DNA of 64,000 nt. Origin: Aliarcobacter butzleri (GTDB lineage Bacteria > Campylobacterota > Campylobacteria > Campylobacterales > Arcobacteraceae). The DNA is taken from positions 1,860,001 to 1,924,000 of the forward strand of contig NZ_LT906455.1 in NCBI RefSeq assembly GCF_900187115.1, read 5' to 3'. The position numbers were made by a program, and so were the translations under genes. The notes beneath the pieces were generated by a model that was not told the origin of the DNA, searched no databases, and saw only the letters and a list, made by a program, of their open reading frames with translations. Of this stretch, positions 569 through 18,087 are shown one piece after another (positions within the stretch are counted from its first letter, which is position 1; each line of letters begins with the position of its first letter).

Positions 569-2152
569 TTAATTTCTTTCTTTAGTCCAAAAAGCTTGGA
601 TTTTTTCTCTTTGTGTTGGAAGTTTTTTTGCAACAAAAAGTAAAATAACTCCAAATATAAATAAACCAATATCAACACTTAAAATTACATACATTTGTTC
701 ATTTATCAGTCTAATAGGAGAAAAACCACTATTTATAAAATGAACAATTGGACTTAAAATAAATAATATTCCACCAAGATATAAAAACTCTTTTGCTGTT
801 TTATATGAATCTAACCTATAAAATGCCCAAGTCAAAGTTCCTATCCAAAGAACAGCAAATAAACCTTTTTGAATTAAAACTCTATTTTCCATATCAAAAG
901 GAAGTATCCATTGTAAAAAAAATAATAATCCAGTTGCAGGAATAACACCAATCATAACTGCAAGAGAAAGTTTTCCAAAGCCTTGATAAACTGGAATATC
1001 TAAAGGAAATTTTCTAGCTCTTTTTTCAAGCCAAAGTAATACTCCAAATCCTATTGCAAAAGTAGAAACTGTCATTAAAGTAGCTATAAATAATCTTGTA
1101 AAAGTATCAACTCCAAACAAAAAATGTAAGAAAAAAACACTATCATAAAATAATCCACTCCAATGTTTATCCATAACTTTTTGTTGTGATATAAGAGTTC
1201 CATCAACTCCACTTAAAGTAACACTTGGTTTATTCGAAATACCATTTAGAAATGGCATATATGGATTATAACCTTCAAACTTTGCAATTGCACTACTATC
1301 ATACCAATTTATAATTTTTACTCTTTGAAAATCAATTTCAGGAGCAATTTCTTTTGCTTTTTTTAACAATTCATTCATTGGAAGCATAGCTACAATATCA
1401 TTTTTCTTTTCAATTCTTGGTTCATCTGGATATAAAACAGGTCCTGTTAATTTCCATATTTCATGAGTTTCACCTTTAGAAGCAAGATAAGTCATAGGAG
1501 CAGAACCATCATAACCTATGTTCATAAAAGCGCCTGTTAATGTAATAATTATAAAAGGAGGAAATACCCAAGTAAATATTTTCCTATGCCATTTTGAAAA
1601 TACTCCTGTTTTTGTGCCTGTACTATTTTTATACTTTATTTTTAGTATTAATATAACTCCACCAATAACTAAAAACATAACTCCCACAGCCATAAAACCA
1701 AATAAAAAATATCCAAAATCTTTAAATGGTCTTCCATAATGCATATGATTTAAAAAACTTGCAAGTCGTGATAAATCACCTTCATTTTTAACTTCTAAAC
1801 TTGTATTTGGATTAAATACTTTTGTTTCTACAAAGTCTGTTGATATTCTAAGAGCTGGATCTTCCATATATCCTGGAAAAATGATAGAAATTGGATTTAT
1901 TTTTGGATATTCAGGATCTGCTAAAACTGGATCTACCATTGCACCATAGTTTATAGTTGTAGGTTCAGCTACTTTAAAATGTCTTGATGGTTTTTCCCAT
2001 ACTTGAATATAAGGAAGTAAAATTGCAAAAATTCCAAAAAATACTGCTACATACATAAGAAGTGAAAAACTTATTCCTGTTGTAACATGAACTCTTTGAA
2101 GTCTTTGATTAAATAATTTCTTTTTTTCTTGTTGCGTTATTTCTTGATTCAT
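569..2152 (-). CDS. PepSY-associated TM helix (PiuB-like) membrane protein
   Basis: 527 residues with a membrane helix near residues 26-50, a periplasmic stretch, helices near 150-175 and 195-215, a second soluble part, and a cluster of helices in the C-terminal 190 residues. This is the layout of the PepSY-TM family, which includes proteins encoded beside siderophore receptors and thought to be inner-membrane ferric-siderophore reductases. Candidate haem or metal-binding histidines lie in HMHYGRPF and KWHRKIF. It sits between the small DUF3649-like protein (8-nt gap) and the exported protein ending at 67, and shares a promoter block with the nearby TonB receptor. Family assignment is good; the iron-reductase role is inferred from family and context. 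Confidence 0.85.
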   Translation of the reverse strand: MNQEITQQEKKKLFNQRLQRVHVTTGISFSLLMYVAVFFGIFAILLPYIQVWEKPSRHFKVAEPTTINYGAMVDPVLADPEYPKINPISIIFPGYMEDPALRISTDFVETKVFNPNTSLEVKNEGDLSRLASFLNHMHYGRPFKDFGYFLFGFMAVGVMFLVIGGVILILKIKYKNSTGTKTGVFSKWHRKIFTWVFPPFIIITLTGAFMNIGYDGSAPMTYLASKGETHEIWKLTGPVLYPDEPRIEKKNDIVAMLPMNELLKKAKEIAPEIDFQRVKIINWYDSSAIAKFEGYNPYMPFLNGISNKPSVTLSGVDGTLISQQKVMDKHWSGLFYDSVFFLHFLFGVDTFTRLFIATLMTVSTFAIGFGVLLWLEKRARKFPLDIPVYQGFGKLSLAVMIGVIPATGLLFFLQWILPFDMENRVLIQKGLFAVLWIGTLTWAFYRLDSYKTAKEFLYLGGILFILSPIVHFINSGFSPIRLINEQMYVILSVDIGLFIFGVILLFVAKKLPTQREKIQAFWTKERN

Positions 2153-2160
2153 CTCTTACC

Positions 2161-2466
2161 TTAAATATTATATAAAATTGCAATTAAAATTGAAAATATC
2201 AAAGTTGGAATAATCACTCTTAATATTGCGCTTAATTTACTATATGCTAAACTAATCCATAAAGCAACTATCGCCCAAGCCATAGTATTAAAAAGTAGTG
2301 GTACAACAATAGATTCTCCAGGTTTTCCAGGAATCATATAAATAAGTAAAGTCATACCTAAATATGCAACTATTAATCCACCAAATATAGCACAGAGCGT
2401 CCTAAAAAGTCCGATCTTTTTCCCGCTTGCTTCGGGAACACTTAAAGATTTTATTAACTCTTTCAT
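2161..2466 (-). CDS. Small three-helix inner-membrane protein (DUF3649-like)
   Basis: 101 residues from the ATG at 2466, chosen because AAGGAG stands just upstream; the in-frame ATG 42 nt further upstream has no such site. Three hydrophobic helices cover most of the protein, after a short charged N-terminus (MKELIKSLSVPEASGKK). Small proteins of this type (DUF3649) commonly precede PepSY-TM genes in siderophore-uptake loci; this assignment is from memory of the family pattern and is moderately sure. It is the first gene of a three-gene minus-strand operon and lies directly downstream of the 59-nt promoter block shared with the TonB receptor. Confidence 0.7.
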   Translation of the reverse strand: MKELIKSLSVPEASGKKIGLFRTLCAIFGGLIVAYLGMTLLIYMIPGKPGESIVVPLLFNTMAWAIVALWISLAYSKLSAILRVIIPTLIFSILIAILYNI

Positions 2467-2514: not shown

Positions 2515-2573
2515 GTAATTATTTCCATATTTAGCTTAAACAATTCTGCTTAAAAGTTCAATCATGATAAATA
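2515..2573 (-). promoter_or_regulatory. Promoter block shared with the TonB receptor (copy 1)
   Basis: A 59-nt stretch that matches 7363-7421 at 45 of 59 positions with no gaps. It includes a run of 22 identical bases (2552-2573), an identical TTCTGC (2544-2549), CTTAA and AATTATTTC. It ends 49 nt upstream of the small membrane-protein gene. Read on the minus strand it carries TTATCATGATTGAAC, with an ATCATGAT palindrome, but no strong -10 box at 17-nt spacing, which suggests activator-dependent transcription. Confidence 0.6.
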
Positions 2574-2579
2574 AGAGAC

Positions 2580-2606
2580 AAAAAAAGCTAAGAATTAGCT
2601 TTTTTT
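2580..2606. terminator. Rho-independent terminator of the metal ATPase operon
   Basis: An 11-bp perfect stem, AAAAAAGCTAA (2581-2591) and TTAGCTTTTTT (2595-2605), with a GAA loop. On the minus strand it is followed by T7. It overlaps the ATPase stop codon and is a convincing terminator for that gene. Confidence 0.8.
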
Positions 2607-4718
2607 ATATGAACAAAAAGAGTCTTTTTTAGGTTTTTCTTCTATTGTTTTTAAAATTCTCATCGAGTTAAATATCGCTATTAATGCAACTCCCATATCC
2701 GCAAAAATCGCTTCTTTCATACCAATAATTGCATCTGCACCTAAAACTAAAAATATAACTTTTATAAACATAATAAAAATGATATTTTGATACACAATAG
2801 TTTTTGTTTTTTTAGCAATTTTTATAGCATCACTTATTGAATTTAAATTATCATTTAAAACTACAATATCTGCTGATTTTATAGCTAAATCACTACCAAC
2901 TTTTCCCATAGCAAAACCTACATCAGAATTTGCCAAAGTTGGAGCATCATTTATTCCATCACCTACAAAAGCTGTAATCTTTCCTGTTTTGTTTTTTATC
3001 TCTTCATAACTTTTTAGTTTGTCTTGAGGTAGAAGTTCATATTTTACCTCATCAATTTGTAAATCATCTGCTACTTTTAAAGCAACTTCTTTTTTATCAC
3101 CTGTTAGCATATAAGTTTTAGAAATATTTAATTTTTTAAGTTCATTTATAAAATCTTTTGCTTCATTTTTTATAATATCACTTACAACAATAAATCCTTC
3201 AAATTTAGAATCAATAGCAATATAAACGATATTTAATTCTTCTTTTATCTCTTTTCTTACTTCTACACCAAACTGTTTAAGTAGTCTTTCATTTCCAACT
3301 AAAATATCTTTATTTTTTATCTTTGCTTTTATTCCCAATCCACTTAACTCTTCACAAGAACTTACTTCTTTTAAATTTAACTCTTTATCATAAGCGTTTA
3401 CTATTGCCTTTGCTATTGGATGTGTTGAAAAACTTTCTACTAAAGCAGCATATTCTAAAAGTTTATTTTCATCTAAATTAAAACTCTCTACTCTTGTAAC
3501 TTGAAAAACTCCTTTTGTTAAAGTTCCAGTTTTATCAAAAATAATTTCTTGAATCTCTGTTAATTTTTCTATATAGTTTGCACCTTTTACTAATACACCT
3601 TTTTTTGAAACAGCACCAATTGCACTAAAAAATGATAAAGGAATAGAAACAACTAAAGCACAAGGGCAAGAAATAACCAAAAATACTAATGCTCTTTCAA
3701 TCCAATCAGAATAAATCGCACCTTCGATAAATAAAGGAGGAATAAATGCTAAAATTAAAGCTAAAGCTATAACAATTGGAGTATAAACTGATGCAAATTT
3801 TGTTATAAATTTTTCTGCGTTTGCTTTTTTTGAACTTGCATTTTCAATAAGTTCTATAATTTTTGCAATAGTTGAATCTTTATATAAAGAAGTTACTTTT
3901 ACATAAGAAGCTATTGAAATATTTATAAATCCACTTAAAACTTCTTCATTCTCTTTTATCGTTTTTGGTTTAAATTCACCTGTAATTGCACTAGTATCAA
4001 AAGAACAATCATTACTTTGCAAAATTCCATCAACAGGAACTTTTTCACCAGCTTTTACTAAAATAATATCCCCTATTTTTACATCTTCAGGAGCTTTTTG
4101 TATAACATTTTCACCCTCTTTTACATTTGCATATTCTGGTTTTATATCTAAAAGTGAGTTTATACTATCTCTTGAATTATTAACTGCAACTTTTTGGAAC
4201 ATTTCACCAATTTGATAAAATACCATAACAGCAATACCTTCAACAAAATCTCCCAAAACAAAAGCTCCAATAGTAGCAATTGACATCAAAAAATTTTCAT
4301 CAAAAAATCTAGCATTTGTTAAATTTTTAAAAGCTTTAAATAAAACATCAAAACCAACTAATAAATATGCTACTAAATAAACTGTAAATTTTAAATAATT
4401 GTTTTCTATATAGTTGTAAGAAATATAAGTTAGAAAAAAAGAAATCAAAGTGATAATTAAAAGTTTTTTATCTAAATTTTGCCAAAATGTTTTTTGAGTT
4501 TTTATCTGATCTTTTAAAATAATTACATCTTTTTCTATCTTTTGAATCTCTTTTTCTATTTTGTCTAAAATATCTTTTTTTGTATTTTGCTCAAAAGTGA
4601 GAGTTGAAGTAGAAAAATTTAATTTTACATTTGATAACTCTTCCATATTAGCTAAAGATTTTTCAATCTTTAAAGCACAAGATGCACAATCTAAATTTTG
4701 TAATTTGACCTTTTTCAT
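2595..4718 (-). CDS. cadA: P1B-type heavy-metal ATPase (Zn/Cd/Pb exporter)
   Basis: 707 residues. Order of domains: an N-terminal HMA metal-binding domain with LDCASC (residues 8-13), paired helices, the A-domain, the metal-site helix with CPC (351-353), the phosphorylation motif DKTGT (D395), the STHP motif of the nucleotide domain and GDGINDAP. The last helices carry FIK and FADMG, the Lys and Asp typical of the Zn2+/Cd2+/Pb2+ subgroup rather than Cu+ pumps. It hydrolyses ATP to export divalent metal from the cytoplasm. The gene follows the ArsR-type regulator by 4 nt, so the two form a repressor-pump operon. The symbol zntA would be equally apt; the preferred metal cannot be settled from sequence. 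Confidence 0.93.
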   Translation of the reverse strand: MKKVKLQNLDCASCALKIEKSLANMEELSNVKLNFSTSTLTFEQNTKKDILDKIEKEIQKIEKDVIILKDQIKTQKTFWQNLDKKLLIITLISFFLTYISYNYIENNYLKFTVYLVAYLLVGFDVLFKAFKNLTNARFFDENFLMSIATIGAFVLGDFVEGIAVMVFYQIGEMFQKVAVNNSRDSINSLLDIKPEYANVKEGENVIQKAPEDVKIGDIILVKAGEKVPVDGILQSNDCSFDTSAITGEFKPKTIKENEEVLSGFINISIASYVKVTSLYKDSTIAKIIELIENASSKKANAEKFITKFASVYTPIVIALALILAFIPPLFIEGAIYSDWIERALVFLVISCPCALVVSIPLSFFSAIGAVSKKGVLVKGANYIEKLTEIQEIIFDKTGTLTKGVFQVTRVESFNLDENKLLEYAALVESFSTHPIAKAIVNAYDKELNLKEVSSCEELSGLGIKAKIKNKDILVGNERLLKQFGVEVRKEIKEELNIVYIAIDSKFEGFIVVSDIIKNEAKDFINELKKLNISKTYMLTGDKKEVALKVADDLQIDEVKYELLPQDKLKSYEEIKNKTGKITAFVGDGINDAPTLANSDVGFAMGKVGSDLAIKSADIVVLNDNLNSISDAIKIAKKTKTIVYQNIIFIMFIKVIFLVLGADAIIGMKEAIFADMGVALIAIFNSMRILKTIEEKPKKDSFCSYKKS

Positions 4719-4722
4719 AAAA

Positions 4723-5064
4723 TTATCCTTTTGTTATATGCTCAAATCCCATATCAAAAATCCTTTTTATATGTTCATCATCAAGTGAATAATATATCCA
4801 TTTACCTTCTCTTTTTGACTTTACAATTTTTGCATTTTTTAGTGCTTTTAGTTGGTGAGAAATCGCAGATTGACTGATATTTAAAATTTCACTTATTGCT
4901 CCAACACATAAAGTTTCTTCTTTTAAAATAGCAATTATTTTTATTCTAGTAGTATCAGCAAAAGCTTTAAAAAGCTCTGCTACGTCATATAAAGTTTCAT
5001 CACTAGCTAAAGCTTTTCTTACATTTTCTACTTCTTTTGAGTGTTCACAGCAATTTACAATCAT
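4723..5064 (-). CDS. ArsR/SmtB-family metal-sensing repressor (CadC-like)
   Basis: 113 residues with a winged helix-turn-helix typical of ArsR/SmtB repressors (recognition helix in ISQSAISHQLKALK, wing in KREGKWIYYSL). Cysteines in the N-terminal NCCEHS and in the ETLCVG segment fit the alpha-3N type metal site known from CadC, where Cd, Pb or Zn binding releases the operator. The start at 5064 is preferred over an upstream in-frame ATG at 5103 because AAGGA precedes it and the longer form would cover the operator. It is co-transcribed with the ATPase and probably represses both. Confidence 0.88.
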   Translation of the reverse strand: MIVNCCEHSKEVENVRKALASDETLYDVAELFKAFADTTRIKIIAILKEETLCVGAISEILNISQSAISHQLKALKNAKIVKSKREGKWIYYSLDDEHIKRIFDMGFEHITKG

Positions 5065-5082
5065 ATTATTCCTTTTTATATA

Positions 5083-5108
5083 AACATATGAACATATAAT
5101 CATATATT
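5083..5108. promoter_or_regulatory. Candidate ArsR/CadC operator
   Basis: Inverted repeat AACATATGA (5083-5091) and TCATATATT (5100-5108): arms match at 8 of 9 positions with an 8-bp centre. It lies 19 bp upstream of the repressor start codon. The position and AT-rich dyad fit SmtB/CadC-family operators; binding is inferred. Confidence 0.55.
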
Positions 5109-5178: not shown

Positions 5179-7305
5179 TTAGAAAGTATATTTCATACCA
5201 AGAGTAAAGTTTCGAGGGTCACCATAAAGCATAGAGTTAACTCCAATACCTTCATAATATTTTTCATCAAAAACATTGTTTATATTTAACTGTAAATCTA
5301 AACTTTTATTTATTTTATATCCAGCCATTAAATCAGTAGTGATAAATGCATCTTGTGTGATTTTAGTTGCACCACTTCCTGTATAAACTTTACTTTTATA
5401 GTTCAATCCTGCACCAAATCTATAATTACTAATAGTATATTTAGCCCATAAATTTGCTGTTGTTCTTGAAGAATCTGTATTAAATTTACTTCCATCAGGA
5501 TTTTCTGCTTCAAAGTTTGCTAATCCAAAATCTAAACTAAAATCATCTGTAAGATTTCCTTGTACTCCCAATTCAAAACCTTTACTTACAACGCCGTCAA
5601 TTCTTTCAAAGGCATTTTTTAAAGGATTGCTAGCAATTGGTATTCCAGTATCTTCAAAACCTGTTTGCTCAATTCTAAATATAGATAAAGAAGTATTTAA
5701 ACGTCCATCAAAATATTCCCCTTTAATTCCCGTTTCATAGCTTTTCCCTTCTGCTGGGTCTAAATAATTATTATCTTTATCTTGTCTATCTGTTGGTTTA
5801 AATATACTCGTATAACTCACATAAATAGAGTAATTTTTATCTATATCGTAAACTAAACCAGCATAAGGAGTAATTTCATCGTCAAATTCTCTATTCCCAT
5901 TTCCATTTTTAGCTTGATATTCCCAAGATGAAACTCTAATACCAGAGATAAGTTTTAAATCTTCCATTAAAGAAAATCTTCCTGCCAAATAATAACCTTT
6001 TTGTATAGTTTTACTTGGTAATTCTAAAGTAGGAGTATTTGCACTTAATTGCGGATTATCAATATTTATATTACTAAAATTTAAAGAGGAAGCACTAATA
6101 TAACCAGTCCCAGCAAAATTATTCTTTTTAAAATCATATTTGTTATATCCAAATCCAGTAATTATCTCATGGTCAAGTTTTGCTAATTCAAAAGGAATTG
6201 AGGCATACAAATTTAGATTATTTTCTTCTTCTTTTGCATCACTTACATAATCATACAAAAATCCATCTGCATTATTAGTCACTTTATTAACTGTTCCAAA
6301 ATAATATGCTATTGCTGTTTTTGAATCCATTGTTCTATTTGAATAAGACGCATTAATTGAAATATCATCATATATATACTGTTTTAAATCTGCAAAATAA
6401 CTTGTAGTTTTATTATCCCAATAAGTCCAATCATCTGAAACTGTTTTAGAACGACTAAAATTAGTTCTTGAACCATCAGTATAAAATGCTGGCAATCCTC
6501 CCCATCTTACTCCATCTCTTTGAATATTTTCATAACTAGCACCAAAAGATAAATATGTAGTATCTGTTAAATCCATATCAACTACACCATAAAAAACATC
6601 TGTTTGTTTTTCATAATTATCCATATATGATTTTTTATCTTGATGTTTTGCTACAAATCTAGCTCTTACACTTCCATCAGTATTTAGTGGAGTTTGAACA
6701 TCTGCTGAAGACGTATAATTATCCCAAGAACCTGCGCTTAAATCAATAGTTCCTTTAAATTCTTTTGAATTAGCATGCTTTCTAATATAGTTTAAACCTA
6801 AAGCAGGATTTCCAGCACCTGTCATAAGTCCATTTGCACCTTTTACAATTTCAACTCTATCAAAAATGATTAAATCAGTATCATTTGCACCATAATCAGC
6901 AATTGAATAAGTAGGCATTCCATCATATAAATTATAATCAATAGTAAATCCTCTAGCTGTTGGATATACTCTTTCATCCCACTTATTTAGAGTAACACCT
7001 GGCGTTTTAGATAATAATTCTTGATAAGAAGTTATATTTTGATCTTCTAATCTTTGTCTAGTAAAAACTAAAACAGATTGAGGAGTTTCTCTTAAAGATA
7101 AATCCAATTTTGTGGCTGTACTTGTAGCTCCTGTTGTATATGAACCTGTTTCTTCTGTTACACTATTCAAAATCAAATTATTCTCTGAAACTTTTATCTC
7201 TTCAAGTACTGTTGTGTTTTGACTATTTTGTGCTGCAAAAAGTTGGCTTCCCAAAACCATCGACACACAAAATGACATTGATATCATTTTTCCTTTTTTA
7301 TTCAT
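5179..7305 (-). CDS. TonB-dependent siderophore receptor
   Basis: 708 residues. A signal peptide (MSMSFCVS-type hydrophobic core ending in AAQ), a short linker with a TonB-box-like stretch (LEEIKVSE), a plug domain (roughly residues 55-190 with ETPQSVLVFTRQRLED, LSKTPGV and FDRVEIVKGANGLMTG), then a 22-strand beta-barrel ending in an aromatic residue (GMKYTF). The plug wording is typical of the ferric siderophore (FhuE/FpvA/FoxA-type) group. It imports an iron chelate across the outer membrane using TonB energy. AAGGA precedes the start. Upstream are a Fur-box candidate and the 59-nt block shared with the DUF3649/PepSY operon, and the next gene is divergent. The siderophore cannot be named. 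Confidence 0.9.
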   Translation of the reverse strand: MNKKGKMISMSFCVSMVLGSQLFAAQNSQNTTVLEEIKVSENNLILNSVTEETGSYTTGATSTATKLDLSLRETPQSVLVFTRQRLEDQNITSYQELLSKTPGVTLNKWDERVYPTARGFTIDYNLYDGMPTYSIADYGANDTDLIIFDRVEIVKGANGLMTGAGNPALGLNYIRKHANSKEFKGTIDLSAGSWDNYTSSADVQTPLNTDGSVRARFVAKHQDKKSYMDNYEKQTDVFYGVVDMDLTDTTYLSFGASYENIQRDGVRWGGLPAFYTDGSRTNFSRSKTVSDDWTYWDNKTTSYFADLKQYIYDDISINASYSNRTMDSKTAIAYYFGTVNKVTNNADGFLYDYVSDAKEEENNLNLYASIPFELAKLDHEIITGFGYNKYDFKKNNFAGTGYISASSLNFSNINIDNPQLSANTPTLELPSKTIQKGYYLAGRFSLMEDLKLISGIRVSSWEYQAKNGNGNREFDDEITPYAGLVYDIDKNYSIYVSYTSIFKPTDRQDKDNNYLDPAEGKSYETGIKGEYFDGRLNTSLSIFRIEQTGFEDTGIPIASNPLKNAFERIDGVVSKGFELGVQGNLTDDFSLDFGLANFEAENPDGSKFNTDSSRTTANLWAKYTISNYRFGAGLNYKSKVYTGSGATKITQDAFITTDLMAGYKINKSLDLQLNINNVFDEKYYEGIGVNSMLYGDPRNFTLGMKYTF

Positions 7306-7324: not shown

Positions 7325-7342
7325 TTATTATGATTACAATAA
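7325..7342. promoter_or_regulatory. Fur-box candidate upstream of the TonB receptor
   Basis: An 18-nt AT-rich dyad, TTATTATGA facing TTACAATAA, whose arms agree at 7 of 9 positions, 20 bp upstream of the receptor start codon. Campylobacterota Fur sites are AT-rich dyads of this kind. No equally clear site was seen at the DUF3649 operon. Confidence 0.4.
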
Positions 7343-7362
7343 CTAGTCTCATGTATTGTTTT

Positions 7363-7421
7363 GGAATTATTTCTTATTGTCACTTAAGTTTTTCTGCAAA
7401 AAAGTTCAATCATGATAAATA
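7363..7421 (-). promoter_or_regulatory. Promoter block shared with the DUF3649/PepSY operon (copy 2)
   Basis: The partner of 2515-2573: same length, 45 of 59 positions identical, with 22 consecutive identical bases at 7400-7421 and identical TTCTGC at 7392-7397. It ends 58 nt upstream of the receptor start and points the same way relative to its gene as copy 1. The conservation outside coding DNA, at fixed spacing, argues for a common regulator binding both promoters. Confidence 0.6.
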
Positions 7422-7450
7422 CTTTTCTCAAAGGAGCCACTTTTTGGACA
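7421..7450. promoter_or_regulatory. Paired AAAAGT motifs upstream of the transposase-derived regulator
   Basis: Read on the minus strand this stretch has AAAAAGT (7439-7445) and AAAAGT (7421-7426), whose T ends are exactly 18 bp apart, with GGCTCC between them. Terminal inverted repeats of IS1595-type elements, as I remember them, start with GG and contain AAAAGT, so these could be relic ends now used as operator half-sites. They sit between two divergent promoters. The idea is inferential. Confidence 0.3.
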
Positions 7451-7517
7451 TTTTTTTATATTAGAATACCATCAAAATTTAATCAATCTTAGTGAAAAAA
7501 TAAAAAGAGAATATATT

Positions 7518-8072
7518 ATGAAATTAAAATTAAAAGAAATATGTGAATATTTTAGTAAAGATTTTACAGCAAGTGAAACATCAAAAATACTCAATTTGAG
7601 TAGACCAACTGTAAATTACTATTACAAAATATTTAGAGAATCAATCATAAATGATTTATTTATTTTAAAAGGAAATACATTTCAAGTAGAATATATAAAA
7701 TTTAGAAATGAGTATTTTTTTTATATTATAAACAAAAATTCAATTTATTTAATAGAAGAACATTCAAAATTATTAGCAAATTTAAAAATCTTTATAAAAA
7801 ATGAAATAAAAAAATCTCTGATAAATAATTCAAAATCAAATGCAATTAGAATCCTTTACAATAAACATACACAAAATTTCACAGTTGTAGGCTTTTATAC
7901 CTCAACTCTTGGATTACAAGAGTTTATAAATAACCGTTTGAAGAAGTTTAGAGGTATAAAAAAAGAAAATATATATTCTCATATCAAAGAGTCAATATTT
8001 AGATTTAATTTTTCAAATAATGAAATAAATGAAAAAATATTAAAAAGTTTATCTATAAAACAAGGTCTTTAA
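7518..8072 (+). CDS. Transposase-derived HTH protein, probable regulator
   Basis: 184 residues. The N-terminal 45 residues are a helix-turn-helix (FTASETSKILNLSRPTVNYYYKIFRE) of the kind that opens IS1595/ISXO2-type transposases, and the C-terminal part (LKKFRGIKKENIYSHIKES then FRFN) matches the end of the same transposases. The catalytic core between them is shortened and has no ELDESYFG-like segment, so DDE transposition is very unlikely. The frame is intact, it has a ribosome site, and its stop overlaps the ATG of the RND pump gene (TAATG), so it is translated with the efflux genes and kept under selection. A DNA-binding regulator of the operon and perhaps of the divergent TonB receptor is my inference. 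Confidence 0.7.
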   Translation: MKLKLKEICEYFSKDFTASETSKILNLSRPTVNYYYKIFRESIINDLFILKGNTFQVEYIKFRNEYFFYIINKNSIYLIEEHSKLLANLKIFIKNEIKKSLINNSKSNAIRILYNKHTQNFTVVGFYTSTLGLQEFINNRLKKFRGIKKENIYSHIKESIFRFNFSNNEINEKILKSLSIKQGL

Positions 8073-11000
8073 TGTACAAACTAATAGACTATTTTTATAA
8101 AAATTCTCAACTTAATCATACTATTTTAGTTTTTTTCCTCATTTTAGGAATTTTTTCATATATAAATATCCCTAAAGAAGTTTTTCCTACAACTCAACTT
8201 GAAAAACTTGATATAGAAGGAAGTTACTCAGGAGCTAGTGCAGAAAGTTTAAATAACTTTGCAGTAAGTGAAATAGAAAATCAACTAAACTCTATTTCAG
8301 GACTTGGGAAAATCACTTCATATATTTATTCAGGATTTTTTTCAATCAATATTGAACTTCAAGATGGAGTTGATAAAACTATAAAATTAAATGAAGTAAA
8401 AGATGCAGTAAGCCTTGCAAAAAGATATTTTCCTTCGGATATGGAAGAACCAAATGTAAGAATTATGGATGAAGAGTGGTCATTATTATCTATTGCTTTA
8501 TCTTCTTCAAAATATAATCAAAGAGAGTTATTAAAAATTGCAGATAATTTGAAAAACTCTTTAATGCAAATTAAAAATATAAACAAAGTACGAAATTTTG
8601 GAGATGCAGATTTACAAATAGAGTTAGCTTTAGATAATAAAAAAATAAATATGTATGGATTAAATAGTTCTAGCGTTATTGATGCAATATCACAATTATC
8701 TTATATCTATCCTGTTGGAAATATAGAACAAGTTGGCGATCATGTATATTTAAGTGCTGCTAACAATAAATTTGACTCGAAATTTTGGGAAAATAGTATT
8801 TTAAAAATAGATGGAAAAAAGATTTATCTAAATGATATTGCAAACATAACTATTGGATATCCTAAAAAAGAGACTATTTCTCGACTTAATGGAGAAAATA
8901 CTTTAACTCTAAGAGTATATAAAAATAAAAATGGCGATAGTATCAAACTAACAAAAGAGATAAAAGAGTTACTTAAAAGTACTGAAGCTTCTTATGAAGA
9001 TATTACTTTAGTTGTTTCAAGAGACAATTCTAAATTAATCAATGAAAGATTAAATACGATTTTGGCAAATATAACTTTAGGATTAATCTTAGTTGGATTT
9101 GCTATGTATATTTTGATTAGTCCTAGATTATCATTTGTTATTATTTTAGGTATTCCTTTTTCATTTATTATTGGATTACTATTTTTAGAAATGATGGGAT
9201 ATAGTCTAAATATGGTTTCAATGATGGCTATGTTAATAGCTCTTGGAATTGTAGTTGATGATGCAATTATCGTAAGTGAAAATATCCAAAGACATATTGA
9301 TGAAGGTTATGAACTTGACAAAGCTATTTTAAAAGGAACAAAACAGATGATAGGTCCAGTTATAATAGCTGGAATTACAACTGTTTTTGCTTTTATATCT
9401 ATGTTATTTGTTAGTGGAGAAATGGGACTTTTTATTAAGTTAATTCCTATTGTTATTACTTGTTTGATAGTTTCATCAATTATTGAATCATTTTTATTTT
9501 TACCACTTCATGCAAAACATATTTTAAAGGTAAATGAAAAACAATTAGATTGGACAAAAGTATATAACTTTTATGAAAATATTTTACACAAAGTAATAGA
9601 ACATAAAAGAAGCTTCTTAGTTATATTTTTTATAACTATTCCCATAATTTCAATTATTCTTATAAAAACTAGTAGATTTCAACTTTTTCCAGATATTGAT
9701 TCAAGTAATATTGAAATTGCAGTTAAACTTGAGAACTCTATTCCTATTGAAATAACCGATAATATTGCAAAAAAATATGAAAAAGCTCTTTTAGATAATG
9801 CAAAAGAACTCTATATAAAAAATATAACAACAACAATTGGATTATATGTTGATATTGCAGATAATGAAGAAGAGATAGAAAATGCTTTTATTCTTTCAGT
9901 GGAACTTGAAGAGTTTAGAGAAGAAAATTTTGTAGAAAACTATATAAATCCTATTTTAAACTTTAGTTTTGATTTTGAAAGATCAGATAAAGTAAGACTT
10001 ATTAGCTCTAATGATGCTATGAATATGATTAGAGATTTAATCAATCCTTTATTAAAAGAAGACAATGCCGTTGACTATAATATAATCTCTCAAAAAATGG
10101 GTATTGATTCAACAGATATTGAGATTTTATTGAATTCTTATGATACTTCATTATTAGTTCAGAATATTGAAAAATTAAAAGAAAAACTAAAAAATATAAA
10201 TGGAGTAAAAGATATATCTGATAATACTATTTTAGGACAAAGTGAATACAAATATATAGTAAATGCTTATGGAAGACAATTAGGACTTACAGATAGTGAT
10301 ATAGCAAAAGCTATTAGTAGTTTCTTTTTAGAAAGAGAACAAGCAAATACTTTCAATGAAGATGGAATTATCAAAATAATAACAAAATCAATAAATAAAG
10401 ATAGTATAAAAGAGTTAAAAAACTTTTATATTCCACTTGAAAATAACCAATTTGTTCAATTAAAAGAAGTTGTAGATTTCAAAATTGAAAGAAATTTCAA
10501 CGAAATGCAAAAAATCAATGGACAAATTTATAAAAAAGTTATGGCAAATGTTCAAAATGATATTGTAAATGCAACTGAAGTTTTAGAAAAACTTGAAGGC
10601 ACTATAGAAGATATAAAAAAATCTGGTATTCAAATAAATTTTGGAGGAGAAAAAGAAAAAAGCGATAAATTGGCTTTAGACATTATCAAAGCTTTTTTAG
10701 TTTCAATATTTTTAATATTTATAACTTTACTTATAATCTTCCCCTCTTTTAAAAGTACTTTTGTGATTTTGTCTGTTATTCCTTTTACAATTTTAGGACC
10801 AATTATTGGTCACTTTATAATGGGAATAAATCTAAATTCACAATCAATGATTGGTATGCTAGGACTTGCTGGTGTTGTTATAAATGATGGAATTATTATG
10901 CTTAATTTTTTACATCATACAAGAACAAAAAAAGAGTTTTTTGAAAATGCAAAATTAAGAGTTCGCCCTATTTTAATAACTTCTATTACAACAATGTTAG

Positions 11001-11152
11001 GTTTATTTACTTTAATATTTTTTCCAACAGGAGAATCTATAATGCTTCAACCAATAGCCGTTTCTTTAGGATTTGGGATTTTATGGGGAACAGTTTTAAA
11101 TTTAGTTTATGTCCCTGCTCTTTTTGCAACTTTATATAAAATCAAGGATTAA
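8072..11152 (+). CDS. RND efflux pump, inner-membrane permease
   Basis: 1026 residues, the usual length for AcrB-like transporters. Two homologous halves each have one helix followed by a large periplasmic loop and then five or six helices. The proton-relay aspartates are present in GIVVDDAIIVSEN of the fourth helix; the second half has GVVINDGIIMLN in the matching place. It would export a toxic compound or metal through the adaptor and channel encoded next, driven by proton influx. The ATG overlaps the stop of the HTH gene and only 2 nt separate it from the adaptor, so these are one operon. The substrate is not predictable from what I see. Confidence 0.92.
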   Translation: MYKLIDYFYKNSQLNHTILVFFLILGIFSYINIPKEVFPTTQLEKLDIEGSYSGASAESLNNFAVSEIENQLNSISGLGKITSYIYSGFFSINIELQDGVDKTIKLNEVKDAVSLAKRYFPSDMEEPNVRIMDEEWSLLSIALSSSKYNQRELLKIADNLKNSLMQIKNINKVRNFGDADLQIELALDNKKINMYGLNSSSVIDAISQLSYIYPVGNIEQVGDHVYLSAANNKFDSKFWENSILKIDGKKIYLNDIANITIGYPKKETISRLNGENTLTLRVYKNKNGDSIKLTKEIKELLKSTEASYEDITLVVSRDNSKLINERLNTILANITLGLILVGFAMYILISPRLSFVIILGIPFSFIIGLLFLEMMGYSLNMVSMMAMLIALGIVVDDAIIVSENIQRHIDEGYELDKAILKGTKQMIGPVIIAGITTVFAFISMLFVSGEMGLFIKLIPIVITCLIVSSIIESFLFLPLHAKHILKVNEKQLDWTKVYNFYENILHKVIEHKRSFLVIFFITIPIISIILIKTSRFQLFPDIDSSNIEIAVKLENSIPIEITDNIAKKYEKALLDNAKELYIKNITTTIGLYVDIADNEEEIENAFILSVELEEFREENFVENYINPILNFSFDFERSDKVRLISSNDAMNMIRDLINPLLKEDNAVDYNIISQKMGIDSTDIEILLNSYDTSLLVQNIEKLKEKLKNINGVKDISDNTILGQSEYKYIVNAYGRQLGLTDSDIAKAISSFFLEREQANTFNEDGIIKIITKSINKDSIKELKNFYIPLENNQFVQLKEVVDFKIERNFNEMQKINGQIYKKVMANVQNDIVNATEVLEKLEGTIEDIKKSGIQINFGGEKEKSDKLALDIIKAFLVSIFLIFITLLIIFPSFKSTFVILSVIPFTILGPIIGHFIMGINLNSQSMIGMLGLAGVVINDGIIMLNFLHHTRTKKEFFENAKLRVRPILITSITTMLGLFTLIFFPTGESIMLQPIAVSLGFGILWGTVLNLVYVPALFATLYKIKD

Positions 11153-11154
11153 AA

Positions 11155-11853
11155 ATGACAAAATATATTTTTTTACTATTTCCAATATTTTTATTTGCTA
11201 ACTCATATATAGCAAAAATTGAACCAAAAGATGAATTTAGTATCTATGCAAATGCAAGTGGAGAAATAACATATCTTGATAAAAATAAAGAGATGAATAT
11301 TATAAATGGTGTTATCGTAAAAATTGATAATGTTTTAGATAAAGAAAATCTTAGCCTTTATCAAACTCAATTAAAACTTTTAAATGAAAAACTCTCAATT
11401 TTACAAGATTATTACAATAAATTTAAAACTATAAAAGGTAAAAGTGATTTTGAAAAAGATGAAAAATATATGGAAATTATTGAATTAAAAAATAGTATAA
11501 AAGATTTAGAAATTTCAATAGCAAATACAAAAAATACTCTAAGCAAAAAAGAGATTGCCTTAGACAACTTATATCTAAAAGAGTTTGTTGTTAATAAATA
11601 TGATTATGTAAATGTAGGAACTAAAATCGCAACTGCATATGATATAAGTAAAGCAAAACTAGTTATTTATCTAAATAGTGAAGATTATAAAGATATAAAA
11701 TCAAAAGAGATTTATTTAGATGGTAAAAAATCAGATGTAAAAATAAAAAAGCTTGATATTACTCCTGATAAAACTTTTATTTCTGCATATAAATTAGAAC
11801 TAGAAATTGATTCAAAAGAGTTTGGTAAAAGTATAACTGTGGAGTTCAAATAA
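11155..11853 (+). CDS. Short periplasmic adaptor (HlyD/MFP-like) of the RND pump
   Basis: 232 residues: signal peptide (first 16 residues, FLLFPIFLFANS), a half-lipoyl segment near ANASGEITYLD, a charged coiled-coil of about 70 residues (85-150), a second lipoyl half (YDYVNVGTKIA) and a beta-barrel-like end. It is short compared with usual RND adaptors (about 350-400 residues) and seems to lack the full membrane-proximal domain. The gene order permease-adaptor-channel, with overlapping starts and stops, supports the role. Similarity is structural rather than motif-based, so confidence is moderate. Confidence 0.7.
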   Translation: MTKYIFLLFPIFLFANSYIAKIEPKDEFSIYANASGEITYLDKNKEMNIINGVIVKIDNVLDKENLSLYQTQLKLLNEKLSILQDYYNKFKTIKGKSDFEKDEKYMEIIELKNSIKDLEISIANTKNTLSKKEIALDNLYLKEFVVNKYDYVNVGTKIATAYDISKAKLVIYLNSEDYKDIKSKEIYLDGKKSDVKIKKLDITPDKTFISAYKLELEIDSKEFGKSITVEFK

Positions 11854-13010
11854 TGAAAAAATTTTTATATTGTTTTTTATTCTCTTCTTTACTTTTTGCA
11901 AATGAAAAATCAAATGAAGTTTTAATGCCTTTAAAAAATGAAATAAGAGATTTAGAAACAAAAAGCATAGAAGAAAAAAAAGAGGTAAATAAATATGAAT
12001 GGTTAAATGATTTGAATATATCACTTAGTCAAAGTAAAGATGATGAAAATATAAAAACAAAAGATTATTCTTTAAATTTAAATCAAAAGATACTTGACTT
12101 TGGTGGTATTTCTTCTCAAATTGATTATGCAAATAATTTATTTAAACAAGAAGCTTTAAAAATAAAAATGGAAAATTTTGAAGATTTAAATACTTTGTAT
12201 AAAAACTTTATTGATTTAAAAATAAATGATATAAATATTTTACAAAATGACTTGAATATAAAAAATAGTGAAATAGAAGTTGATATAAAAAAATCTCAAT
12301 ATAGAAATGGTCAAAGTGATATTAGTGATTTAAACGATGCTATTATGAAAAAAAACTTATTAGAAGATTCAAAAATGAATCTAAAACTCAATAAAGTTAT
12401 TTATGAAAATGATATAAAAAAACTAACTTCTTACGAATTAAATAATTTAAGTATTCCTTCAATATATTTGATTTCAAAAGATATATTTTTAGAAAAATCT
12501 ACAAAAAAACTATATGCAAATTTAGAATCGCAAGTAAGCCAAAATGAATACAAAAAAACTAAAAGCAAATATCTTCCAGCTTTAAACCTAACTGGAGCAG
12601 TTGGATATCAAGATTCTACTACAAAAAAATCGCAAGATTATTATAATTATGGTGCAAGTATAACTATGCCTTTAAATTATACCTTTTCAAATGACATAGA
12701 ATATTCAAAACTAGTATATTTACAAAATAGAAAAAAAGAAGAATTAACATCAATTGAACTAGAAAAAGTTTATGATAGTTCAATTGAAACAATAAAACAA
12801 TTCGAAAATAGAATAAATCTTGCATTAAATGACATAAAACTTTATGAAGAACTTTTAGAATTAAATCAAGAAGAGTTTAATGCCGGATTTAAAGCAGATG
12901 AAGATGTTCAAACGCTGAAAAACTCGAAAGAAATAAGAAAATTAGATATTGAAAAATATAAATTAAATATCAAAAAAGAGCTTTTATACATATATTTTCA
13001 AACAATTTAA
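11853..13010 (+). CDS. TolC-family outer-membrane efflux channel
   Basis: 385 residues with signal peptide (MKKFLYCFLFSSLLFANE), long alpha-helical repeats rich in Lys/Glu/Asn/Leu, and two beta-strand pairs (LNLNQKILDFGGISSQIDYA; SITMPLNYTFSNDIEYSKL), which is the pattern of TolC-like trimeric channels. It is on the short side. The start overlaps the adaptor stop (TAATG). It completes a tripartite pump with the two preceding proteins. No clear terminator follows; the next promoter is that of the cold-shock gene about 20 nt on. Confidence 0.82.
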   Translation: MKKFLYCFLFSSLLFANEKSNEVLMPLKNEIRDLETKSIEEKKEVNKYEWLNDLNISLSQSKDDENIKTKDYSLNLNQKILDFGGISSQIDYANNLFKQEALKIKMENFEDLNTLYKNFIDLKINDINILQNDLNIKNSEIEVDIKKSQYRNGQSDISDLNDAIMKKNLLEDSKMNLKLNKVIYENDIKKLTSYELNNLSIPSIYLISKDIFLEKSTKKLYANLESQVSQNEYKKTKSKYLPALNLTGAVGYQDSTTKKSQDYYNYGASITMPLNYTFSNDIEYSKLVYLQNRKKEELTSIELEKVYDSSIETIKQFENRINLALNDIKLYEELLELNQEEFNAGFKADEDVQTLKNSKEIRKLDIEKYKLNIKKELLYIYFQTI

Positions 13011-13632: not shown

Positions 13633-14313
13633 TTAAACAGTAGTAATTTTATAGCCAATCTTTGAAAAATTATATAAGCAATCTTTTGGAAGTTTTTTTC
13701 TTAGTTTTCTTGCTACTGTTCTTAAAGCCCCTTCGCTCATAAAATCATCATTCCAAACAATAGATTGTATAGTATCATAATCGACTAATCTATCGCTATT
13801 TTCGCAAAGAAGAGATAATAAATCAACTTCTTTTATTGATAATTTTTCGATATTTTCATTTTTATATAAAATTTTATTTGAAAGGTCAAAATAACAATCT
13901 TTTGAAAAATATTTTATATTTTTGCTATTTTTTATTTTATTTACGCAATCGCTTAAAATAGGAAATATTGTTTCATGACGAATAGGTTTTACTAAATATT
14001 TTTCAAGTCTTAATTCAATAGCTTCTAATAAATACTCTGTTTTAGTATATGCACTTAAAACTATGATTTTAGTATAAAGATCATTTTTTCTAATTTTCCT
14101 TATCATCTCTAAACCATTAGTTTTAGGCATATTTATATCTGTTATTATAATATGTGGTTTTTTATTATCAATTATTTCAAAAGCTTCATTAGCATCTTTT
14201 GCTTCATATACTTCTTCAAATAATCTTCTAAGATAAGTTACAGCATTTATTCTGATATTTTCTTCATCTTCTACGAATAATACTTTTATATTTTTAAATT
14301 CATTTCTACTCAT
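13633..14313 (-). CDS. OmpR-type response regulator
   Basis: 226 residues from the ATG at 14313. The receiver domain has the acidic pair (VEDEE), the phospho-acceptor D59 in TDINMP, the SAYT threonine/serine position and KPI. The C-terminal about 90 residues form a winged helix (LSIKEVDLLSLLCEN, SEGALRTVARKLRKKL, GYKI). It is divergent from the sensor kinase 75 bp away and probably forms a pair with it. An in-frame TTG at 14328 would overlap the -10 box TATAAT (14320-14325), which leaves exactly 6 nt before this ATG; the mRNA may be leaderless. Confidence 0.88.
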   Translation of the reverse strand: MSRNEFKNIKVLFVEDEENIRINAVTYLRRLFEEVYEAKDANEAFEIIDNKKPHIIITDINMPKTNGLEMIRKIRKNDLYTKIIVLSAYTKTEYLLEAIELRLEKYLVKPIRHETIFPILSDCVNKIKNSKNIKYFSKDCYFDLSNKILYKNENIEKLSIKEVDLLSLLCENSDRLVDYDTIQSIVWNDDFMSEGALRTVARKLRKKLPKDCLYNFSKIGYKITTV

Positions 14314-14319
14314 GGCGCA

Positions 14320-14325
14320 ATTATA
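14320..14325 (-). promoter_or_regulatory. -10 box of the response regulator, 6 nt from its ATG
   Basis: Perfect TATAAT on the minus strand, preceded by a T-rich run (TTATTTTTTG). Six bases separate it from the ATG, so transcription should start at or next to the start codon. Confidence 0.5.
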
Positions 14326-14334
14326 CAAAAAATA

Positions 14335-14349
14335 ATCATAAATTATGAT
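14335..14349. promoter_or_regulatory. Perfect dyad between the divergent two-component genes
   Basis: ATCATAA (14335-14341), one central base, TTATGAT (14343-14349). It lies upstream of both divergent -10 boxes and is a candidate binding site for the response regulator controlling both genes. Confidence 0.45.
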
Positions 14350-14376
14350 AATTAATATTATTTCATTAAATTATTG

Positions 14377-14382
14377 TATAAT
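14377..14382 (+). promoter_or_regulatory. -10 box of the sensor kinase, 6 nt from its ATG
   Basis: Perfect TATAAT followed by six bases and then the kinase ATG at 14389. This mirrors the arrangement on the opposite strand. Confidence 0.5.
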
Positions 14383-14388
14383 AATCTA

Positions 14389-16092
14389 ATGAAAAGCATT
14401 TTATTTCTTATTTTATTTTTTACAAATCTTTACAGCAATAATTTTGGATATTTTATAAAAGACTATATTTCTGAGGATAATATAAATTTTAGAGAACTTA
14501 AATACGAAGATTATGGAAATCTAATTTTAGATGAATTTACAATTAAGTTTGAACTAGATTTTGAAAAACTTGAAAATAAAACTTACTATTTAACAATCGT
14601 TTCTGACAAAGATAGTTTAATTTATACAAATATTAAATATGAAATAATAAATAATATAATAGTTGTAAAACTCGATAAATTTCAAGAAAAAGAGATATTT
14701 TTTAAATACAAATATGATAGTAAAAAAATTGCCCAATTTCGATGGAATTATATAAATAACTTTGAATACAAATATTTTCTAAAATATGAAGGCATATTAT
14801 ATGGAGTTGCATATGGAATAATCTTTTGTGCTTTTTTATATTATTTAATCATATTTTTTTCAACTAGAATGAAATGTTTTTTATACTATTCTTTAATGCA
14901 ACTTTTTGTTCTTTTATCTCTTGTTGGATTTATGTATTTTAGTTATCACTCTTACCTCTCTTCTATATATCAAGCTTTAGTTGATACAGCAGAAACTCTT
15001 AGTTTTTTATTCACTCTTTTATTTGCACAAGCTATTTTAAAAACTAAAGAAAAAATGCCTGCCATTCATATATTTATAAATATATTTATACTACTTAATA
15101 TCTTGGATTTAATAGCAATTTTTATATATAAATACTCTATTTTATATATTTATGTTCCTTTTTATATAGGATTTTTAATTCCAACTATTGCAGGAGCAAT
15201 TGCAGTAATTAAAGGCGATAAAAATGCATTAGTTTATACTATTGGTTGGTTAGTGGTTTGTATTTTTATATATGCAGCCGAACACTATTTAATTCCAATT
15301 AGTGGAATCTATACTGTACATATTGGCGCACCTTTAGAATCTTTGATTTTTAGTTTTGCATTAGGATATATGTTAAAAATTTTAGTAAAAGAAAAAAATG
15401 AAAAAGAAAAACTTTTAATTCACCAAAGTAAATTGGCTTCAATGGGTGAAATGATAAATAATATTGCTCATCAATGGAGACAACCATTAACTCATTTAGG
15501 TTTTATAAATATGAATTTTCAATTAGCCTTAGAAGATAAAAAAATAGATATAAAATACTTAAATGAAAAAATAAAAGAATCAAATTCTCAATTGGACTTT
15601 ATGTCAAAAACAATTGATAATTTTAAAGATTTTTACAAAGTTAATAAACAAAAAGAGAACTTTTATTTAAGCGATGAGATATATAAAGCCATCGAAATAA
15701 TGCAACCTATTTTTGATAATCTAAATATAAATTTTGAATTTAAAATAAAAGAAGATACTCAAATAATTGCTTATGAAAACGAGTATTCTCAAGTAATATT
15801 AAACCTTTTAACAAATGCAAAAGATGCAATTATCTTAAGAAAAATATCTAATCCACAAATAAAAATTATTCTTGAAACAAAAAATAATAAATCATTTACA
15901 ACTATCCTTGATAATGCTGGTGGTATAGAAAAAGAGCATTTAAACTCAATATTTGATCCATATTTTACAACAAAAGAAAAAGGAACAGGAATTGGACTTT
16001 ATATGTCAAAAATGATTATAGAATCTCACTTTAAAGGAAAAATAAATGTCTTTAATATAAAAGATGGAGTCGCTTTTTCTATTGAAATATGA
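14389..16092 (+). CDS. 7TMR-DISM sensor histidine kinase
   Basis: 567 residues from the ATG at 14389. Signal peptide (MKSILFLILFFTNLYSN), a periplasmic beta domain (about residues 18-125; 7TMR-DISMED2-like), seven membrane helices (about 135-335), then HisKA with H361 in IAHQWRQPLTH, and an HATPase domain with N-box NLLTNAKDAI, DNAGGI and GTGIGLYMSKMII. It senses an unknown signal and phosphorylates the divergent OmpR-type regulator. A TTG at 14374 in the same frame is rejected as start because it overlaps the promoter. Confidence 0.9.
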   Translation: MKSILFLILFFTNLYSNNFGYFIKDYISEDNINFRELKYEDYGNLILDEFTIKFELDFEKLENKTYYLTIVSDKDSLIYTNIKYEIINNIIVVKLDKFQEKEIFFKYKYDSKKIAQFRWNYINNFEYKYFLKYEGILYGVAYGIIFCAFLYYLIIFFSTRMKCFLYYSLMQLFVLLSLVGFMYFSYHSYLSSIYQALVDTAETLSFLFTLLFAQAILKTKEKMPAIHIFINIFILLNILDLIAIFIYKYSILYIYVPFYIGFLIPTIAGAIAVIKGDKNALVYTIGWLVVCIFIYAAEHYLIPISGIYTVHIGAPLESLIFSFALGYMLKILVKEKNEKEKLLIHQSKLASMGEMINNIAHQWRQPLTHLGFINMNFQLALEDKKIDIKYLNEKIKESNSQLDFMSKTIDNFKDFYKVNKQKENFYLSDEIYKAIEIMQPIFDNLNINFEFKIKEDTQIIAYENEYSQVILNLLTNAKDAIILRKISNPQIKIILETKNNKSFTTILDNAGGIEKEHLNSIFDPYFTTKEKGTGIGLYMSKMIIESHFKGKINVFNIKDGVAFSIEI

Positions 16093-16520: not shown

Positions 16521-16551
16521 CACGTTTCAAAATTTTAAGTAAAGTTTGAAA

Positions 16552-18087
16552 ATGACAAATATATATCTTAGAAACAATATTTTCTATTATCGAAAATCAA
16601 TCCCAAATCATTTAAAATTATTTTTCAAAAATAAAACTCTTTATGTTCGTACACTAAGTACAAAATCTAAAAAACTAGCGTTAAAATATGCTACACTATT
16701 AAATAACAAATTTAATGCTATAAAAGAGGTTTATAATATGTCTTTTGACATTGACTTTATATATCAATTAGTGGAAGAATTTCACAATACACAATTAGAA
16801 CTTACCGAACAAGACTTATACAATACACCAAAACCTGAAGATACAATTTTTGCTTTAATGCTGGAAGATAGTATTGAACAACTACAACATAATTATCAAA
16901 ATAATATCTTTGAAGTAGAAGAAGTCGAGTTTATACTAAATAAACTTGATTACAAGCCCAATAATGAAGAAATAATAAAAATAGGTAAAATCCTACTAAA
17001 TAGTAAAATAAATCATTTAAAGGCTATTAATGACAAGATAAACAAAGGTCTATATTATAAAGCTAGAAAAATAAACTTAGTAAAAAATAATCTTGCTGCA
17101 AATGAAACAATAACACCTACTAAAAAAGAAGTAAAAGAAGAAGTTAAAGTAGTTAATACTATTGCTTCAACTTTTGACAAATATATCAAATATCAAAGTA
17201 CACAGGATAATTGGACAAATGATACTCTACAATTAAACATAAGAGCTTTTAAACTTTTAAATATGTATTTCAAAGATAAAGATTTAAAAGATATTAAATT
17301 TGATGAGTTGATAGATTTTAGGGATACATTATTGGAGATACCTTTAGCATATACTACAAAAAACTTTTTTAAAAACAAAGATTTAGACTTTATTATTAGT
17401 AATAATGATGACTATGAAACTTTGTCCAATGATACTGTAAACAAATATATTATTAGAGTTAATCAATATCTTGACTATATGTATAAAATAGATTGTATTG
17501 CAAAAGAAAATTTTAAAATTCCAAAACTTAGTTCAGATTCAAAGAAGCGTCAAAATTATACAAGAGAAGAAATACAAAAAATTGAAAATTTAATGCAAAA
17601 TGATACTATTGAAAATCAATTTATAACAAGAGTAGCAACATACCAAGGAATGCGATTAAAAGAGATAACTCAATTAAGATCAGAAGATATTGTTGAAATT
17701 GGTGGTACACCTTGCATAAGTATTAACACAAAAGAAAATAAAACAACTAAAACCGACGCAAGTATTAGAACAATACCTATACACCCAAAATTAATAGAAC
17801 TAGGTTTTTTAGATTTTGTAAAATCTAAAAATAATAATTTATTCAATATTGATAATAAAAGTTTTAGTACATATTTTAGAAAAACATATAAAAACCAAAT
17901 TAATGAAAATAAAACTTTGTATTCATTAAGACATAGTTTTATAGATACTCTAATTCAAAGTAATCAAAAGATGGAACATATAAAAGCTTTTGTAGGACAT
18001 GCGCAAAGTGATAAAACTACTTTTGGATATAGTAATCCAATTAATATAAAACTATTAAAAGGTTTGTTAGATTATATCAATTATTAA
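16552..18087 (+). CDS. Tyrosine recombinase (integrase)
   Basis: 511 residues from the ATG at 16552 (a TTG two codons upstream is less likely). The N-terminal part is an arm-binding domain (IYLRNNIFYYRKSIP) seen in phage and island integrases; a core-binding domain follows at about 200-300. The catalytic domain shows Arg in GMRLKEI, H-x-x-R in LYSLRHSF, His in FVGHAQ and the nucleophile Tyr in TFGYSN. It starts 100 bp inside attL and points into the island, as usual for elements inserted in tRNA genes. It should catalyse integration and excision at tRNA-Met. Confidence 0.93.
   Translation: MTNIYLRNNIFYYRKSIPNHLKLFFKNKTLYVRTLSTKSKKLALKYATLLNNKFNAIKEVYNMSFDIDFIYQLVEEFHNTQLELTEQDLYNTPKPEDTIFALMLEDSIEQLQHNYQNNIFEVEEVEFILNKLDYKPNNEEIIKIGKILLNSKINHLKAINDKINKGLYYKARKINLVKNNLAANETITPTKKEVKEEVKVVNTIASTFDKYIKYQSTQDNWTNDTLQLNIRAFKLLNMYFKDKDLKDIKFDELIDFRDTLLEIPLAYTTKNFFKNKDLDFIISNNDDYETLSNDTVNKYIIRVNQYLDYMYKIDCIAKENFKIPKLSSDSKKRQNYTREEIQKIENLMQNDTIENQFITRVATYQGMRLKEITQLRSEDIVEIGGTPCISINTKENKTTKTDASIRTIPIHPKLIELGFLDFVKSKNNNLFNIDNKSFSTYFRKTYKNQINENKTLYSLRHSFIDTLIQSNQKMEHIKAFVGHAQSDKTTFGYSNPINIKLLKGLLDYINY

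Follow-up and report, generated by a model that had tools for sequence, protein, structure and literature searches.

The window, that is, the whole 64,000-nucleotide stretch of Aliarcobacter butzleri DNA that was analysed, contains at 7518-8072 on the plus strand an intact open reading frame encoding 184 amino acids, which begins with an ATG preceded by an RBS-like AAGAG and whose TAA stop shares bases with the ATG of an RND gene at 8072 (TAATG). The intact frame, the TAATG coupling and the TonB receptor gene that it faces had been described in an earlier, sequence-only reading of this DNA. The gene is present in one copy in the window's genome, with conserved neighbours; it and its orthologues are referred to below as fam. 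The features of the locus are as follows.

569..2152, minus strand: PepSY_TM protein, in the same operon as 2161..2466, ORF 67-678 coming next; relatives retain the PepSY_TM gene as part of the module
2161..2466, minus strand: small membrane protein, first gene of the second proposed target operon
2515..2571, plus strand: second copy of Box A/B, which matches the composite pattern exactly and precedes the PepSY operon; genome G209, a close relative, has it as well
5179..7305, minus strand: TonB-dependent receptor (plug and barrel), divergent from the gene at 7518; proposed target of fam
7326..7346, minus strand: Fur-box/-10-like region near the start of the TonB gene; relatives have GATAATNATTATC, and the window a degenerate form
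7363..7386, plus strand: Box A, GGAATTATTTC-N9-CTTA, at which fam is proposed to bind; situated upstream of the TonB gene
7410..7420, plus strand: Box B, TCATGATAAAT (family consensus TCATGACAAG), 23 bp after the CTTA of Box A
7436..7456, plus strand: Box C, 11-bp direct repeat GCCACTTTTTGGACATTTTTT, facing the fam gene; proposed response regulator site
7518..8072, plus strand: fam, domesticated and catalytically dead descendant of an IS1595/IS1016-type transposase (184 aa; from profile, model and column comparison), with a helix-turn-helix (HTH) at aa 1-44, a shortened RNase H-like core at aa 54-127 and a conserved tail, RLKKFRG...KES.FRFN, at aa 140-164
8072..13010, plus strand: RND pump, HlyD-like adaptor and outer-membrane channel, directly 3' of fam in the window's genus only
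13633..14328, minus strand: response regulator (receiver and OmpR/PhoB-type Trans_reg_C), proposed to bind Box C
14374..16092, plus strand: histidine kinase with 7TMR-DISM sensor, orthologous in all carriers

Profile searches detected fam in 29 of 104 Arcobacteraceae genomes from several genera; among named records it is present, for example, in Malaciobacter halophilus, Arcobacter sp. CECT 8985 and a Halarcobacter MAG. All carriers found among 298 Campylobacterota genomes are Arcobacteraceae. Four further genomes among the matches listed resemble the fam profile weakly and, where read, belong to a hydrogenase-linked family (see below). Most loci have fam and a TonB-dependent receptor gene in divergent orientation, with an OmpR-type response regulator and a 7TMR-DISM histidine kinase encoded within a few kb, and at a subset fam adjoins the kinase/regulator pair with no TonB gene adjacent; a kinase orthologue is present in all carriers. 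The conserved partners of fam are the gene of a TonB siderophore-type receptor and the two-component pair, here at 13633-16092. The sequence-only reading had taken the RND operon as the main partner and had pointed to RND and TonB genes as the neighbours to look for, making no link to the two-component pair; of these neighbours only the TonB gene proved to be conserved, and most carriers have no adjacent RND operon. This operon adjoins fam solely in the window's genus, in the same order in G204, G209, G219 and G222, and lies near it in G120.

The PepSY operon closely follows the TonB gene in several relatives; in the window and in G209 the two are separated by P-type ATPase and ArsR genes (2595-5103). 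The longest ORF of the small membrane protein begins at 2508, a start at ATG 2466, which has an AAGGAG, being the likelier. The TonB receptor of G209 (L109 6750-8858) is 71% identical to that of the window and the ATPase, ArsR and RND genes are 97-99% identical, the divergence of the receptor being likely due to recombination or diversification. A phage-type integrase gene (PF00589, DUF6538) is located at 16546-18087, shortly after the kinase gene.

The window protein matches no named family in Pfam or NCBIfam, and the general models PF12762 and NF033547 fail to reach it. A search of 200 genomes of the order returned fam orthologues at 32-42% identity within the same family, together with weaker matches to full transposases that contain VDESYFG...SDGW...HINGIESFW motifs. 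A profile constructed from the IS1016-type IS1595 transposases ISAcra1, ISEc69, ISEc75 and ISAba36 and from Campylobacterota copies matches the window protein (E 4.5e-16) over the HTH and, as a separate block, over the C-terminal tail, these being the parts that had been read earlier as retained from IS1595-type transposases, and it matches 28 of 28 fam members (E 1e-13 to 3e-21). With the same profile, the next best of 260 ORF stretches from the window scored E 0.26 and the best of 1400 shuffled fam sequences E 0.15. The proposed homology to IS1595 transposases was likewise recovered by profile-profile alignment with hhalign (fam versus IS1016-type, probability 99.0%, E 5.3e-18), and fam forms a single clade (support 100/99) in a tree of 50 sequences. 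The relation is real: fam descends from an IS1016-type IS1595 transposase.

Five residues, D71, D134, N168, E171 and K178 (numbering of L121), are invariant in the transposases, and these D, D, N/E-K catalytic columns have no conserved acidic counterpart in the core of fam; acidic residues that never vary in fam are limited to D15 (HTH) and E158 (tail). The retained HTH and tail, the shortened core and the loss of the acidic motif thus agree with what had been noted from the sequence of the window. An AlphaFold2 model computed from eight fam sequences (pLDDT 90, pTM 0.84) has a three-helix N-terminus with pLDDT >90 at residues 11-40, in agreement with the HTH, which holds an invariant SR.T.N.YYK..R segment, followed by strands at 54-62, 65-72 and 75-78, a long helix, strands at 109-115 and 120-127 and three helices. 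This predicted beta-beta-beta-alpha-beta-beta-alpha arrangement would correspond to a trimmed RNase H-like core, and no DDE triad is found in its aligned columns. The top match to the model in VIA-align was the DDE transposase ISCth4 over 147 residues, at a Z of 5.9 that falls in the range of common arrangements, with unrelated proteins next at Z ∼5; Foldseek returned no significant match in the PDB.

The fam protein is catalytically dead, having lost both the DDE active site and mobility. Elements related to fam show inverted-repeat arms of 15-20 bp; no terminal inverted repeats were found bracketing 7518-8072, and no full IS1595 element was found in the window's genome. Although homologous to the working IS1595 family, fam is placed outside it because the catalytic motif, the inverted repeats and mobility are missing. 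Pairwise dN/dS values of 0.10-0.24 (10 pairs) demonstrate purifying selection. An apparent frameshift in G209 is a run of N and not a break. Domestication is strongly supported by the single copy, the absence of detectable flanking repeats, the conserved synteny, the selection and the dead active site, so that the domestication of a transposase, as proposed from sequence alone, has held up.

The gap between fam and the TonB gene is more conserved than the divergence of the proteins would suggest. Box A alone at one mismatch occurs in 79 of 104 genomes, which is too loose to be informative, and genomes were therefore scanned with a composite Box A/B pattern, AATTATTTC-N9-CTTA-N24-CATGAYAA. Exact matches are present in 19 of 29 fam carriers and 0 of 75 non-carriers (Fisher p 7e-14), and matches at one mismatch in 22 of 29 and 1 of 75, respectively; none at ≤1 mismatch was found in seven carriers (G070, G224, G270, G271, G273, G275 and G279). 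The sites precede TonB genes, and in G252 and G253 a second TonB gene also has one. In G269 (L251) a TonB gene unlinked to fam still bears Box A/B, and in G254 (L107), where the TonB gene is not adjacent to fam, Box A/B stays with the TonB gene. The second copy in the window precedes the PepSY operon that the ATPase/ArsR genes have split off, as fits an operator that needs to be retained. A possible origin of Box A as a fossil terminal inverted repeat was considered (AGGCTCAAGATAAGTTAA in related elements) and is unsupported, only CTTA being common to the two. The region at 7326..7346 is Fur-like by consensus.

Box C (for example GCCATTTTTTAGCCATTTTTT) is located 36-37 nt before the fam start at most loci and 81 nt before it in the window, where the fam leader, in the region 7436-7518, is 44 nt longer than in most orthologues. 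The short distance to the ATG suggests that the fam transcript is leaderless in most orthologues. In ten carriers tested Box C faces fam and never the TonB gene. Direct repeats of 11 bp are what OmpR/PhoB-type regulators typically bind.

A comparison is offered by four members of the window's genus that do not carry fam (G208, G207, G223 and G027). Each has a kinase orthologue with 65-72% identity over its full length and keeps the TonB receptor, the PepSY protein, the response regulator and the kinase, G223 also retaining the RND operon, and both fam and Box A/B are absent from all four. In three of them, G208, G223 and G027, it is the TonB gene that Box C faces (PWM 24-29.5, with 0 of 500 shuffles as high), and G223 has a further Box C directed at the RND operon; Box C is thus exchanged between the fam and TonB promoters according to whether fam is present. 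As these genomes all belong to one genus, they may reflect one or few events. In G207 a scar-like region (L244 5608-5864) contains an inverted orphan Box C pointing away from the TonB gene, and a two-mismatch Box A relic lies beside that gene; no coding remnant of fam was found there. By these sequence traces, G207 resembles a former carrier from which the gene has been lost.

Box C follows the response regulator and not fam and has the direct-repeat period of OmpR/PhoB sites, for which reasons the response regulator probably reads it. Box A/B tracks with fam, and its place upstream of the TonB promoter suits an activator, hence the proposed order of kinase, response regulator, fam, and TonB and PepSY targets. 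According to this scheme an IS1016-type IS1595 transposase that lost its DDE site and mobility would have become a host DNA-binding regulator in the Arcobacteraceae. The 7TMR-DISM kinase would signal to the OmpR/PhoB-type regulator, which would bind Box C and switch on the fam gene and, in the window's genus, the RND pump too; fam would in turn bind Box A/B and most likely activate the TonB receptor gene and, in the window, also the PepSY operon. The relay would thereby separate a two-component system from a target that, in some close relatives, seems to be under direct control of the response regulator. The computation itself shows the ancestry, the lost triad, the selection, the synteny, the strict co-occurrence of Box A/B with the gene and the exchange of Box C between promoters; we infer which protein binds which box, activation rather than repression, and the signal. 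The transcription-factor role first suggested from the sequence is supported, on present evidence, by the co-distribution of the fam gene with a specific operator, and the RND operon as its main partner is not. We consider a domesticated DDE transposase acting as a relay from kinase through response regulator and fam to the gene of the TonB iron-uptake receptor the best reading, with a probability of about 0.74.

Several other explanations were weighed. The assignments of the boxes might be exchanged, with the response regulator on Box A/B at the TonB gene and fam on Box C, where it would repress or tune its own promoter; autoregulation is common and Box A/B is confined to loci that also have the response regulator, but congeners with the regulator and without fam have Box C and no Box A/B, and an 11-bp direct repeat is the type of target expected of an OmpR/PhoB-type protein, whose domain is found here, making the exchange improbable. 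A closer variant would have fam as a co-factor in a joint complex with the response regulator over Box A/B at the TonB promoter rather than as a free-standing relay. The ∼57 bp length of Box A/B, beyond the need of one small HTH protein, and the constant association of fam with the two-component pair agree with this; carrier TonB promoters without Box C, and the unlinked TonB gene that also bears Box A/B, do not, and a joint complex is considered unlikely. Another gene co-distributed with fam could bind Box A/B.

That fam chiefly regulates the translationally coupled RND efflux operon, as the TAATG overlap and the shared gene order in four congeners might imply, is very unlikely given that the operon is not adjacent in most carriers and has its own Box C, and hence apparent direct control by the response regulator, in the fam-lacking G223. 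It is scarcely credible that fam is a functionless, decaying transposase remnant: the lost catalytic motif and shortened core would be expected of one, but the low dN/dS, the frames kept intact in carriers of several genera and the fixed synteny would not.

Two other groups, one IS1595-derived and one IS1595-like, were encountered. One, with an N-terminal zinc ribbon, an HTH and a degenerate core, is present in 78 of 298 Campylobacterota genomes, nearly always as a single copy, and includes a member in the window's own genome (G000:C1:1407342-1407977; L278, 8340, plus strand). Among the loci of this family (L278, L279-L297 and L040-L050), 20 copies were sampled, and 18 of these are located within or beside the [NiFe]-hydrogenase hyp cluster, in most cases in divergent orientation to hypB; this family is likely a second domesticated regulator. 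A common origin of the two families after domestication was not adopted, as they form separate clades in a tree whose rooting is uncertain. The other, a non-catalytic group in one genus (L037 9059-9664, L038 9458-10087 and L039 3839-4429), adjoins argH- and pckA-like genes, and its nearest relatives in the tree are intact Campylobacterota IS1016-type copies. The chances are slightly better than even that a DDE transposase gave rise in fam to a new bacterial transcription-factor family, inserted as an additional step between a response regulator and the promoter that it formerly targeted, with the response regulator site at the target where the step is lacking and at the new regulator where it is present, and that a parallel, separate domestication took place beside [NiFe]-hydrogenase maturation genes in the Campylobacterota. 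One genus provides a natural comparison in which sensor, regulator and receptor are the same and the fam step is either present or absent, with operators that match; this makes the gain or loss of a relay derived from a selfish element directly testable at this locus.

Plants and animals have well-known transcription factors that derive from transposases. In the literature searched, of which coverage was partial, no bacterial transcription factor derived from a DDE transposase was found, and nothing relevant on IS1595 domestication, DDE-derived bacterial regulators or hyp-linked transposases. The plant transcription factors FHY3/FAR1, from MULE transposases (PMC13306707), resemble fam as transposases turned into host transcription factors but are eukaryotic, come from another transposase superfamily and do not act downstream of a two-component system. 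In bacteria, the TldR proteins are RNA-guided transcription factors derived from TnpB (PMC13418256) and likewise represent a transposon protein converted to transcriptional control; TnpB, however, is an RNA-guided nuclease and not a DDE transposase, whereas in fam a protein HTH would read the operator. Prokaryotic transcription factors derived from mobile genetic elements, among them Ner/SfsB and antitoxins and Xre and RHH proteins, have been reviewed (PMC8987985); Ner/SfsB and the antitoxins are, like fam, mobile-element DNA-binding proteins recruited for host regulation, and the terms DDE and IS1595 are absent from that review.

The closest relatives of fam by descent are IS1016-group transposases such as those used for the profile, with which it aligns in the HTH and tail and shares common ancestry; it differs from them in having no DDE triad, a shorter core, no terminal repeats found, a single copy and a conserved locus. 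In regulatory layout a parallel is provided by two-component control of siderophore receptors, such as PfeRS/PirRS of Pseudomonas, in which a sensor kinase and an OmpR-type regulator are tied to a TonB receptor gene under Fur control. There the regulator acts directly on the receptor promoter, as also seems to be so in the relatives that lack fam, whereas at the fam locus a proposed transposase-derived relay intervenes.
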